The notes beneath the pieces are model-generated. The model worked only from the letters and a program-made list of their open reading frames with translations, was not told the origin of the DNA and made no database searches. This document shows positions 25,215 through 30,486 of a stretch of 64,000 bases of DNA, one piece after another. Location: assembly GCA_035531755.1 (NCBI GenBank), contig DATKSK010000003.1:1-64000 (forward strand). The letters are read 5' to 3'. This stretch comes from Acidimicrobiales bacterium. Lineage in GTDB: Bacteria; Actinomycetota; Acidimicrobiia; Acidimicrobiales; UBA8190. The first letter of the stretch is position 1. Each line of letters begins with the position of its first letter. Both the position numbers and the translations under genes were made by a program.

Positions 25215-26225
25215 TCACGTCTCCGGGGTCACCCGGAGCACGGCGGCCCCGGTGACGCGGTCCCCGGCGAGGTCGGCCAGGGCGCGGTCGGCCTCCTGCA
25301 GTGGATAGGTGGTCGTCGTCGCCATTACGCCGAGACGCGACGCCAGGCGGAGGAACTCTTCCCCGTCGCGTCGTGTGTTGGCCGTGACGCTGCGCACCTG
25401 CCGCTCGTAGAAGAGGTGGTCCTGATAGTGCAACGGCGGCACGTCGCTCAGATGGATCCCGGCGATGACGAGCACCCCGCCACGGTCGAGGGCCGCCAGG
25501 GCCCTGGGCACGATCTCGCCCGCCGGGGCGAACACGATGGCGGCGTCGAGGGGGACCGGCGCTGCGGCGTCGGCCCGGCCCACCGAGGACACCCCGAGCT
25601 CGGCCGCCAGGCGCCGGGCGTCCGCGGACCGGGTCATGACGTGGACCTCGGCGCCCTGGCGCATGGCCACCTGGGCGGTCAGGTGCGCCGATCCTCCGAA
25701 CCCGTAGAGGCCCAGGCGCCCACCCGGGGGCAGTTCGGTGCGGCGCAGGGCGCGGTAGCCGATGATGCCGGCGCACAGCAGCGGGGCGGCCTGCTCGTCG
25801 GCCAGGGCGTCGGGGAGCCGGTAGGCGTAGCGCTCGTCGACGACGGCCGCTTCGCCGTAGCCGCCGTCGTGGTCCCAGCCCGTGAAGGTGGCCTCGGGGC
25901 ACAAATTCTCGTCCCCGCGTCGGCAGAACCGGCAGCGGCCGCAGGTGGTGGCCAGCCAGGCGACGCCGATGCGGTCCCCGGGCTCGAAGCGCGTGGCGCC
26001 GGCGCCCACGGCGTCCACGACACCGACGACCTCGTGGCCCGGCACGACGGCGGGGCGGTGGACCGGGAGGTCGCCCTCGACCACGTGCAGGTCCGTGCGG
26101 CACACGCCGCATACCGAGACGCGCACGCGCACCTGGCCCGGGCCGGGCACCGGTCGGGCCCGCTCGGCCAGGCGGAGCGGGTGTCCCGCCACGGGTCCGG
26201 GCGAGACGACCTCCCAGGCGCGCAC
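25215..26225 (-). CDS. zinc-dependent alcohol dehydrogenase (AdhA-like)
   Basis: A 336-residue zinc MDR. The catalytic zinc ligands are in [10 protein letters not shown] and GHEVVG. The structural zinc site is the four-cysteine cluster [15 protein letters not shown], and the nucleotide fold has [14 protein letters not shown]. This is the AdhA/propanol-preferring group common in actinobacteria. The GTG at 26225 begins [12 protein letters not shown], the usual start. The gene is divergent from the PPOX-type gene at 26376, and a DosR-like palindrome sits between them (26324-26343). That hints at induction under low oxygen. Confidence 0.92.
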
Positions 26226-26323: not shown

Positions 26324-26343
26324 GAGGGACCTTCGACCCTTGG
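26324..26343. promoter_or_regulatory. DosR/DevR-like palindromic box
   Basis: GAGGGACCTTCGACCCTTGG contains two inverted half-sites, AGGGAC and GACCCT, separated by CTTC. This matches the layout of the mycobacterial DevR/DosR consensus (GGGAC, four bases, GTCCC) with one mismatch in the second arm. Its centre is 43 bp before the ATG at 26376, the typical activating position if the PPOX gene is leaderless. It is 107 bp from the divergent alcohol dehydrogenase start. Confidence 0.5.
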
Positions 26344-26375
26344 TCCGGGCACGCCGGGGGAGCGATGGTGGGATC

Positions 26376-26918
26376 ATGACCAATGAGCGCGGGGCGGCGC
26401 CGGTTCCGGCGGGCGGGCTCGTGCCCCCGCGGCGGGTCGACACCGGTCGAGCGTCCCCGGGGACATGGGGAGCGGGCGGGGGCGGCGGCGTCCTGGAGGA
26501 GATCGGCGAGGAGGACTGCCTGGCCCTCCTGGGCGGTGAGCGCGTCGGCCGTCTGGTGGTCTCGGGCCGGCCGCCCCACGTCTTCCCGGTGAACTTCGTG
26601 CTCGACGGCCGTGCCGTCGTGATGCGCACGGCGGCCGGGACCAAGCTCGACGCCGTGCGGCGCGACGCCGAGGTGTGCTTCGAGGTGGACAACATCGACC
26701 GCGTCGCCGAGTCGGGGTGGAGCGTGGTCGTGACCGGCCACGTCCGCGAGGAGATCCACATCCACGACGGATCGCCCCAGCCGAGGCCCGAGCCGTGGTC
26801 CGCCGGTGTGCGCGCCTACTGGCTGCGCCTGACGCCCACGGCCATGACGGGGCGCCGCGTGCGGCCCGGGCCCCGCCGGTCGGCGCCGCCGGCGACCGCC
26901 GGGCACCCCGGCCGCTAA
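26376..26918 (+). CDS. pyridoxamine 5'-phosphate oxidase (PPOX)-family protein
   Basis: A 180-residue split-barrel flavin-binding family protein. The core is [15 protein letters not shown]...[27 protein letters not shown] with VCFEVDNID and [13 protein letters not shown], as in the Rv3129/PPOX-like group associated with dormancy regulons. The first 38 residues are a Gly/Pro-rich extension, and the end is Arg/Pro-rich. GATGGT just upstream may be a -10, which would make the gene leaderless. The stop TAA overlaps the stop of the convergent ackA gene by 3 bases (26915-26918). Confidence 0.85.
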
Positions 26919-28030
26919 GGGGCGGGGACCAGGGCGCGGACCTGCCGGGCGATCTCGAGGTCCTCGCGGGCGCGCACGACCAGCACGGCCGGCTCGACGC
27001 CGTCCGGGGACACCACGCGGTCGGGGGACACCACGCGGTCGGGCTCCGACGCCTCGTTGCGCGCCGGGTCGAGCACGATCCCGAGGAACCCGAGCCCCCC
27101 GGCGGCATCGCGCCGCAGTCGTGGCGAGCCCTCGCCCGCGCCGCCCGTGAAGACCACGCCGTCCAGCGCACCCATGGCCGCCACCATGGCGGCGATGCCG
27201 GCGCGCAGCCGGTGGACGTACACGCCGACGGCCAGCCGCGCCCGGTCGTCGCCCCGGTCGGCGGCCTCGAACACCGCCCGCAGGTCGGCGGAGGTGCCCG
27301 ACAGGCCGAGCAGGCCCGAGCGGCGGTCCAGGACGTCCTCGATCTCGTCGACCCCGGCGTGCTCGTGGCGCAACAGCCACACGAGCACGCCGGGGTCGAC
27401 GCTCCCCGAGCGCGTCGCCATCACGAGCCCGTCGAGGGGGGAGAATCCCATGGTGGTGTCGACCGACCGCCCGCCGTCCACCGCCGCCAGCGACGCCCCC
27501 GCGCCCAGGTGGGCGGTGACGAGCCGCAGGGAGCGGGCAGGGCGGCCCAGCAGCTCGGCGGCCCGCCGGGCGGCCCAGGCGTGGCTGAGGCCATGGAACC
27601 CGAATCGCCGGAGCCCGAGACGTCGCCAGGCGGCGGGCAGCGCGTACGTCGAGGCCTCGTCGGGCATCGTGGCGTGGAAGGCGGTGTCGAAGCACGCCAC
27701 CTGGGGGAGGCCGGGCCGAAGCGCCTGGAGCCTGCGGATCGCCGCCAGGGCCGGCGGGTTGTGGAGCGGGGCCAGCGTGGCCAGGCCCGCCAGCCGATCC
27801 TCGAGGGCGGGCCCGAGCACGACGGCCTGGCGGAACTCGAGCCCGCCGTGCACCACGCGGTGCCCGGCGGCGGCCACGGCCGGCACGTCCCGGAGTGCCT
27901 CCTCCACCACGTCGGCGATGTCCCCCGGGTCCGGCAGGGGGAGGGCGCGTTCCATGACCGGGACGTCGTCGGGGCCGAGCACGCTCAGCTTGAGGCTGCT
28001 CGACCCCGCATTGACCACGAGCACTCGCAC
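26915..28030 (-). CDS. ackA: acetate kinase
   Basis: Acetate kinase, 371 residues (slightly short for the family, about 400). Motifs: VNAGSSSLK at the start, [53 protein letters not shown] and [10 protein letters not shown]. It converts acetyl phosphate plus ADP to acetate plus ATP. It is divergent from the phosphoketolase gene, with start codons 29 bp apart, so the two enzymes form a phosphoketolase-acetate kinase module. A perfect 18-bp duplication (27006-27041) inserts DRVVSP twice near the C-terminus. Confidence 0.95.
27006..27041. repeat. 2 x 18-bp tandem duplication inside ackA
   Basis: The unit GGGGACACCACGCGGTCG occurs twice head to tail at 27006-27023 and 27024-27041. It keeps the reading frame and adds six residues to a surface-like region close to the C-terminus. 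Confidence 0.85.
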
Positions 28031-28059: not shown

Positions 28060-30486
28060 ATGCACGACGCGGCCGACGCCCCGTCCCGTTCGCCGGAGGA
28101 GCCCGTCGCCGTGCGGGGCACCGGCGGTGACACCGCGCCCGAGGACCTCTCGGGGTTGGACGCCTACTGGCGCGCCGCCAACTACCTGTCGGTCGGCCAG
28201 ATCTACCTCCTCGACAACCCCCTCCTGCGCGAGCCGTTGCGTGTCGAGCACATCAAGCCCCGACTCCTCGGCCACTGGGGGACGAGCCCGGGCCTGAACT
28301 TCGTCTACGCGCACCTCAACCGCGTCATCACCCGGCGCGACGCCAGCGTCCTGTACGTGTGCGGCCCGGGACACGGTGGGCCGGCCATGGTGGCCAACGC
28401 CTGGTTGGAGGGGACCTACAGCGAGCTGTACTCCCACGTCTCGACGGACGCCACCGGGATGGCCCGGCTCTTCCGGCAGTTCTCGTTCCCCGGCGGCATC
28501 CCCAGCCACGCCGCACCGGATACCCCCGGCTCGATCAACGAGGGCGGCGAGCTCGGCTACAGCCTGGCGCACGCCTACGGCGCGGCATTCGACAACCCCG
28601 ACCTCGTCGTGGCCTGCGTCGTCGGTGACGGCGAGGCCGAGACCGGTGCGCTCGCCACCAGCTGGCACGCCAACAAGTTCCTCGACCCGCAGCGTGACGG
28701 CGCCGTGCTCCCCGTCCTGCACCTGAACGGGTACAAGATCGCCAACCCCACGGTGCTGGCCAGGATCCCCGAGCACGAGCTGACATCGCTCCTCGCCGGC
28801 TACGGCTACCGGCCCTGGATCGTCGACGGGGGCTTCGACGGCGAGGACCCGATGCTCGTGCACCAGCGGATGGCGGTCGCCCTCGACGCCGCCTTCGACG
28901 AGATCGCACGCATCTGGGCGCAGGCCCGATCGGGCGGTGACCGCCGGCGGCCGGCGTGGCCCATGGTGGTCCTGCGCACCCCGAAGGGCTGGACGGGCCC
29001 GCGTTTCGTCGACGGCGTCGCCGTGGAGGGTACGGCCCGCTCGCACCAGGTCCCCCTCGACGAGGTCCGGAGCAACCCCGCGCACCTCGCCCAGCTCGAG
29101 CAGTGGATGCGCAGCTACGGCCCCGACGAGCTGTTCGACGAGCACGGCCGGCCCACCCCCGTCGTCACGGGCGTGGCCCCGGTGGGTGAGCGCCGCATGA
29201 GCGCCGTCCCGGTCGCCAACGGGGGCGTGCTGCTCGAAGACCTCGAGCTCCCGGACTGGTCGGCCTACGCCGTGGAGGTCGACACGCCGGGCCCGGCCCT
29301 CCACGGCGCCACGTGGGTGCTCGGCGAGTACCTGCGCGACGTGATCAGGGCCAACCCGTCGACCTTCCGGCTCTTCGGCCCCGACGAGACGGCGTCGAAC
29401 CGCCTGCAGGCCGTGTTCGAGGCCACCGACCGGGCGTGGATGGGCCGGGTCGTCGACGGCGACGACCACCTGGCCCCCGGGGGGCGCGTCCTCGAGGTCC
29501 TGTCCGAGCACCTCTGCCAGGGCTGGCTCGAGGGATACCTGCTGTCCGGGCGCCACGGCCTGTTCAACTGCTACGAGGCCTTCATCCACATCGTGGACTC
29601 CATGTTCAACCAGCATGCCAAGTGGCTGGAGTCGGCCCGTCACATCCCGTGGCGGCGGTCGGTGGCCTCGCTCAACTACCTGCTGTCGAGCCACGTCTGG
29701 CGCCAGGACCACAACGGCTTCTCGCACCAGGACCCGGGGTTCCTCGACGTGGTCGTGAACAAGCAGGCGTCGGTCATCCGCGTCTATCTCCCCCCGGACG
29801 CCAATTGCCTGCTGTCGGTGGCGGACCACTGCCTGCGCAGCCGCGACTACGTCAACGTCATCGTGGCGGGCAAGCACCCCGAGCACGACTGGCTGTCGGC
29901 CGACGCCGCCATGATCCACTGCACGCGCGGGGCGGGCGTCTGGGAGTTCGCGTCGAACGACGCCGGGTCGATGCCCGACGTCGTGATGGCCTGCTGCGGG
30001 GACGTGCCCACGCTCGAGACCCTGGCGGCCGTCGACCTGCTGCGCCGGCACCTGCCCGACCTGAAGGTGCGGGTCGTGAACGTGGTCGACCTCATGCGGC
30101 TGCAGCCCGAGTCGGAGCACCCGCACGGCCTGACCGACCGGGAGTTCGACACGATGTTCACGACCGACCGACCGGTCGTGTTCGCCTTCCACGGGTACCC
30201 GTTCCTGATCCACCGGCTGACGTACCGCCGCGCCAACCACGACAACATCCACGTGCGCGGCTACAAGGAGCACGGTACGACCACGACGCCGTTCGACATG
30301 GTCATGCTGAACGACCTCGACCGCTTCCATCTGGTCATCGACGTCCTCGACCGGGTGCCCGGCCTCGAGGTGCGGACCGCTGCACTGCGCCAGCAGATGG
30401 TCGACGCCCGGTTCGAGGCTCGTCGCTACACCCGTGAGCACGGCGAGGACCCGGCGGACATCGCGCAGTGGCGCTGGCCGGGTTGA
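28060..30486 (+). CDS. xfp: phosphoketolase (xylulose-5-P/fructose-6-P)
   Basis: An 808-residue thiamine-diphosphate enzyme of full family length. It shows [19 protein letters not shown], the signature [20 protein letters not shown], and the TPP-binding [10 protein letters not shown]. Later come the catalytic His-rich blocks HQDPGFLD and [10 protein letters not shown], and the C-terminal [17 protein letters not shown] and [17 protein letters not shown]. It cleaves xylulose 5-phosphate (and probably fructose 6-phosphate) to acetyl phosphate, which AckA turns into ATP and acetate. AAGGAGG (28045-28051) precedes the ATG. Its promoter must lie within the 5' end of ackA. Confidence 0.96.

Follow-up and report, generated by a model that had tools for sequence, protein, structure and literature searches.

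Our analysis identifies a DosR/DevR-type box in the intergenic gap between the divergent genes of a zinc-binding alcohol dehydrogenase (ADH) and a PPOX-class protein of an Acidimicrobiales bacterium. This motif is very probably a binding site for a DosR relative, in a position to activate the adjoining PPOX gene. We hold with high confidence the fuller reading in which it is the predicted site of the genome's own DosR orthologue, activating a leaderless PPOX transcript. The low-oxygen dormancy switch of mycobacteria and Streptomyces, as judged from sequence comparison, also appears in this distantly related part of the phylum.

A DosR-type box in the ADH-PPOX intergenic region

The window, that is, the whole 64,000-nucleotide stretch of DNA that was analysed, is part of contig C3 of a 3.28-Mb genome in 77 contigs. 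The 16-mer AGGGACCTTCGACCCT (AGGGAC-CTTC-GACCCT) lies between ADH on the minus strand and PPOX on the plus strand (Table 1), where the first-pass annotation had placed it. The DevR-like layout and the distance of about 43 bp to the PPOX start that the annotation proposed are borne out: the box centre is at 26332.5, 43.5 bp before the ATG, which corresponds to a class II position and probably to a leaderless gene. Pfam matches also agree with its naming of the ADH, PPOX, acetate kinase (AckA) and phosphoketolase (XFP) genes.

Table 1. Features around the DosR-type box, with positions in the window.
Feature	Position	Strand	Remarks
Zinc-binding alcohol dehydrogenase, ADH (TIGR02822)	25215..26225	-	Divergent; not a predicted target
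DosR-type box AGGGACCTTCGACCCT, 16-mer	26325..26340	+	Oriented to PPOX
-10-like GATGGT	26364..26369	+	A 26365 and T 26369, at +32.5 and +36.5 from box centre
PPOX-class protein, Pyridox_ox_2 (PF12900), 180 aa	26376..26918	+	E 6.6e-23; predicted leaderless box target
Acetate/propionate kinase AckA	26915..28030	-	Convergent with PPOX, not downstream of box
Phosphoketolase XFP	28060..30486	+	Own Shine-Dalgarno AAGGAGG; no box

Within this box, GGGACCTTCGACCCT (26326-26340) is one base off the stringent mycobacterial DosR consensus GGGACTTNNGNCCCT (PMC6448022), that is, 1 mismatch in 12 specified bases. A weight matrix trained on sites of the same genome, whose scores are descriptive, gives it 24.5, and the next best site in the window 14.6. 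A first search pattern, GGGACNNNNNGNCCC, had the wrong spacing, was uninformative and was dropped. Matches to the loose pattern GGGACNNNNGTCCC with 1 mismatch are not enriched within the window (3 found versus 11.9 expected), a count below chance expectation that, taken by itself, leaves room for a chance GC-rich palindrome without function. Since the window alone gives nothing beyond chance, the question was settled genome-wide.

Recurrence of the box in the genome and its co-occurrence with DosR

Among the matches listed, the exact 14-mer GGGACCTTCGACCC recurs at five other places (C18, C41, C42 twice and C65). Searching the genome for GGGACYTTNGNCCC with at most one mismatch returned 96 matches versus 36 for the reversed control, and the exact 15-mer GGGACYTTNGNCCCT occurs 17 times versus 0 for the reversed pattern. 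Coding sequence makes up 85% of the surveyed DNA, yet 18 of the 21 exact GGGACYTTNGNCCC matches fall between genes (binomial p ~8e-13). In the quarter of the genome that was sampled around known sites, the matrix gave 52 hits. The window box is very probably one of a few dozen sites forming the DosR regulon of this bacterium.

We extended the comparison to 147 other genomes of the order, with a cut-off of E <=1e-60 for a DosR orthologue and the 15-mer as the box. The box is present in 63 of 79 genomes with DosR versus 9 of 68 without (Fisher p 1.3e-16, the cells being genomes, which are non-independent events and span some 60 families). Genomes with DosR contain 208 sites versus 15 reversed controls, and those without contain 13 versus 11. 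These class-level statistics, together with the exact 15-mer counts, the intergenic bias of the 14-mers and the locked -10 element described below, make a functionless chance palindrome very improbable for the motif as a class, despite the low number of loose matches in the window.

A DosR orthologue and its putative heme-GAF kinase

The first-pass annotation had seen no dosR-like gene in the window, and nothing contradicts this; it had also called for a genome-wide search for a DosR-type regulator and for more boxes, and both turned up, the regulator on another contig. The query was the M. tuberculosis DevR sequence, which matches PDB 3C3W over its full length at 4e-135. The gene at C21:16527-17147 encodes a protein with 59% identity to M. 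tuberculosis DevR, the next paralogues reaching at most 38%, and 3C3W is also its best match among solved structures (1e-74). Residues D8, D9, D54, T82, K104, K179, K182 and N183 are retained, which include the phospho-acceptor Asp54 and the DNA contacts K179, K182 and N183. In a phylogenetic tree this orthologue groups with DosR of Acidimicrobiaceae inside a single DosR clade that includes M. tuberculosis DosR, and two of the genome's own paralogues fall outside that clade; the tree speaks to these groupings rather than to the deeper branching order. The nearest DosR proteins, 89-92% identical, come from Acidimicrobiaceae metagenome-assembled genomes (MAGs), one of them from a bog, and this kinship assigns the genome to Acidimicrobiales.

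A box read by another NarL-family regulator, for instance C28:31433 or C12:13980, has to be weighed because such paralogues exist, with 36-38% identity to DevR. We regard this as quite improbable, given that the recognition helix of DevR recurs nearly intact in the DosR orthologue and that the motif resembles published DosR/OsdR sites. Moreover, genomes with only paralogues of about 40% identity show no enrichment, the box being found in 4 of 26, which argues against paralogues as its reader. The DosR orthologue remains the favoured reader.

The kinase gene adjoining dosR has a GAF-HisKA_3-HATPase layout. Its GAF domain matches the heme GAF of DevS at ~1e-41 and keeps the PPxHPPM histidine, which we take to be the heme ligand, and the protein is probably a DosS/DosT-type partner with a putative heme-GAF sensor.

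Tandem boxes with a spacing of 21 bp are found close to dosR, ahead of the neighbouring gene C21:15698-16360 (L090:7699-8361, + strand). The 220-aa product of this gene belongs to no Pfam or NCBIfam family and is kept near DosR in relatives (L370, L371, L374), as a conserved partner of DosR that still lacks a name. MAGs labelled Thermoleophilia and Nitriliruptoraceae also contain DosR proteins, with 66-68% identity (L244, L231, L280), which extends the regulator to further deep classes of actinobacteria.

A locked -10-like element and probable leaderless starts

Alignment of 38 intergenic sites on the box yields the consensus GGGACCTTNGNCCCT and only one other strong signal, which is one-sided: an A at +31.5 and a T at +35.5 from the box centre. 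A-N3-T occurs at exactly +31.5 in half of the sites (19/38, versus a mean of 0.7 at other offsets), and in 27/38 when ±1 is allowed (versus ~1-3 at most other offsets). These two bases are the -11/-7 signature of a -10 element, which would set transcription initiation near +42.5. ORFs with coding character begin 41-44 bp from the box centre at 8 of the 38 sites in the sense direction, with a cluster at 41.5-43.5, and at none in the antisense direction. From the locked -10 element and the clustered start codons, we infer that the boxes overlap the -35 region, with their centre near -42 to -44, and that at least some genes are leaderless. This -10 element also occurs at 17 of 31 box sites of other genomes that were not used in its discovery. 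Likewise, the proximal DevR site overlaps the -35 element in the M. tuberculosis target promoters that have been analysed (PMC3029386).

At the window site, the distance from the -10 element to the start codon is as expected. The -10 element itself lies one base beyond its most frequent distance from the box and is poor, GATGGT rather than TANNNT; a GGTGGG ahead of the PPOX ATG can be read as a weak Shine-Dalgarno sequence. The following course of events would fit these features. The adjoining heme-GAF kinase, which resembles DosS, would probably phosphorylate DosR when oxygen falls or when NO or CO binds. Phosphorylated DosR would bind the box over the -35 region and recruit RNA polymerase to the GATGGT -10 element, and a leaderless PPOX mRNA would start at or near A 26376.

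The PPOX protein and its paralogues

The PPOX ORF scores weakly as coding sequence. Its conserved domain starts at about residue 39, and the start codon is less certain because the N-terminal extension of ~38 residues is absent from most homologues; the real start could be GTG 26421 instead of ATG 26376. The protein resembles the PPOX class of FMN- and F420-dependent oxidoreductases through its PF12900 match and through FMN-binding relatives in the PDB such as 6eci, and differs in lying far below the cut-off of the F420 family TIGR03618 and in its long N-terminal extension. It is probably a flavin- or F420-dependent redox enzyme. No closely similar orthologue was found in relatives, the best reaching ~50% identity, so that the exact site cannot be footprinted, and in none of the relatives examined does PPOX occupy this position in an ADH-PPOX gap.

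Two PPOX paralogues of the same genome carry a box in or near the class II position, C3:79609-80028 with its ATG at 43.5 and C11:14140-14523 with a GTG at 44.5. PPOX promoters with the layout of the window site were found in six other families.

The box faces PPOX within a fermentation gene block

The first-pass annotation had set the box over the whole ADH-PPOX-AckA-XFP cluster, a claim that did not hold: box and -10 element face PPOX only, and ADH, AckA and XFP are separate units. A promoter serving a single cluster was rejected on gene directions; the 3' ends of PPOX and AckA overlap by 4 bases, and XFP is divergent from AckA. The annotation's remark that such clusters recur in actinobacteria is a fair one, as several other families have AckA or XFP close to DosR, PPOX, Usp or boxes. 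AckA-XFP pairs occupy such a setting in genomes G045, G031, G020 and G059, which makes a functional link to low oxygen plausible.

Control of all four genes by this box, as one hypoxic fermentation module, seems unlikely to us. Besides the four genomes just named, the idea can draw on two relatives in which XFP itself is preceded by a sense DosR-like box with a -10-like element (L305 in G010:C7 and L312 in G029:C26), and on the sharing of DosR sites by divergent genes in M. tuberculosis. Gene directions nevertheless rule out one operon, A-N3-T is absent at the right distance on the ADH side of the box, and the weight-matrix scan found no second strong box in the cluster. Among relatives, 8 of the 29 PPOX loci are preceded by a sense box, as against 2 of 19 for XFP and 0 of 26 for ADH, the null counts being 1, 0 and 0, and six of the eight boxed PPOX loci have their ATG at 42.5-43.5. 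In addition, the close relative G011 carries an ADH-AckA-XFP-Ppx block, 73-83% identical, that has neither a PPOX gene nor a box. In G010, box and PPOX gene are convergent with AckA. The simplest reading of these arrangements is that a self-contained box-PPOX unit joined the fermentation block in this lineage, with PPOX as the predicted target of the box.

Relation to known DosR systems

The predicted regulon resembles the DosR/DevR regulon of M. tuberculosis in its orthologous regulator with the same contact residues, its DevS-type heme GAF kinase, its near-identical box, the proximal box overlapping -35, and shared Hsp20, Usp and triacylglycerol-synthase-type WS/DGAT genes. It differs in several respects: the box prefers GGGACCTTNGNCCCT and works in a single orientation, with its -10 element at a fixed distance; one box per target appears to be the rule for most targets; GAPDH, glutamate dehydrogenase and several PPOX paralogues belong to the gene set; and the kinase has one GAF domain whereas DevS has two. 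In S. coelicolor, predicted sites of OsdR, also a DosR orthologue, lie before the PPOX gene SCO0214, zinc dehydrogenases, Usp and pyruvate phosphate dikinase, and one listed site, CGGGACCTTCGGCCCT, is one core base off the window box (PMC5069765). Unlike the box described here, the Streptomyces consensus AGGGCCGATCGGCCCT has no CTT core.

An open-access literature search found no work joining DosR and Acidimicrobi*, although such work may exist elsewhere; among the matches listed, DevR with Acidimicrobi* gave unrelated titles only, and nothing on point was found for phosphoketolase or acetate kinase with DosR. Most work on DosR concerns its role as a dormancy switch in pathogenic mycobacteria. 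Its recurrence in uncultured Acidimicrobiales together with the kinase, the box and the promoter geometry, backed by strong genome-wide statistics, points to an old, general actinobacterial low-oxygen programme. The balance is even on whether the DosR-DosS circuit, the leaderless class II layout and PPOX as a core output represent an ancestral actinobacterial oxygen response, kept in much of Acidimicrobiales and possibly in Nitriliruptoria and Thermoleophilia, of which the M. tuberculosis dormancy regulon would be a specialised descendant, derived from an environmental low-oxygen programme. For regulon prediction in MAGs, the analysis offers a ready motif, GGGACYTTNGNCCCT with A-N3-T ~31.5 bp downstream of its centre, and it singles out PPOX proteins as an output that recurs but lacks a functional explanation.

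Genes adjoining the boxes

The regulon list comes from the part of the genome read around known sites and is non-exhaustive; gene calls were made with a simple codon-usage caller, which missed the PPOX gene itself. Many sites lie before stress or dormancy genes, as in a DosR regulon. Box-adjoining genes encode a WS/DGAT acyltransferase, Hsp20, Usp, pyruvate phosphate dikinase (PPDK), GAPDH, enolase, glutamate dehydrogenase, archease, RtcB, acyl-CoA dehydrogenase, WhiB, a GGDEF protein and several family-less proteins, some of these links being weak because the box is distant or imperfect.

A Usp gene and an archease-RtcB pair flank two boxes (C42:41250-43815, L078:7751-10316). The M. tuberculosis DosR-regulon genes Rv2630-Rv2631 are presumably of the same kind as this pair; if the likeness is true, RNA ligation is a shared part of the programme. 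Two family-less proteins are candidate new regulon genes, L074:8745-9368 (C18) with its ATG 42.5 from the centre of a strong box, and L086:5739-6287 (C65) with its ATG 43.5 from one. Boxes also stand ahead of central carbon genes at C71:65047 (GAPDH), C60:7683 (enolase), C71:56441 (PPDK) and C42:35907 (glutamate dehydrogenase); the GAPDH ATG is 41.5 from the box centre, and the links to the other three are less certain.
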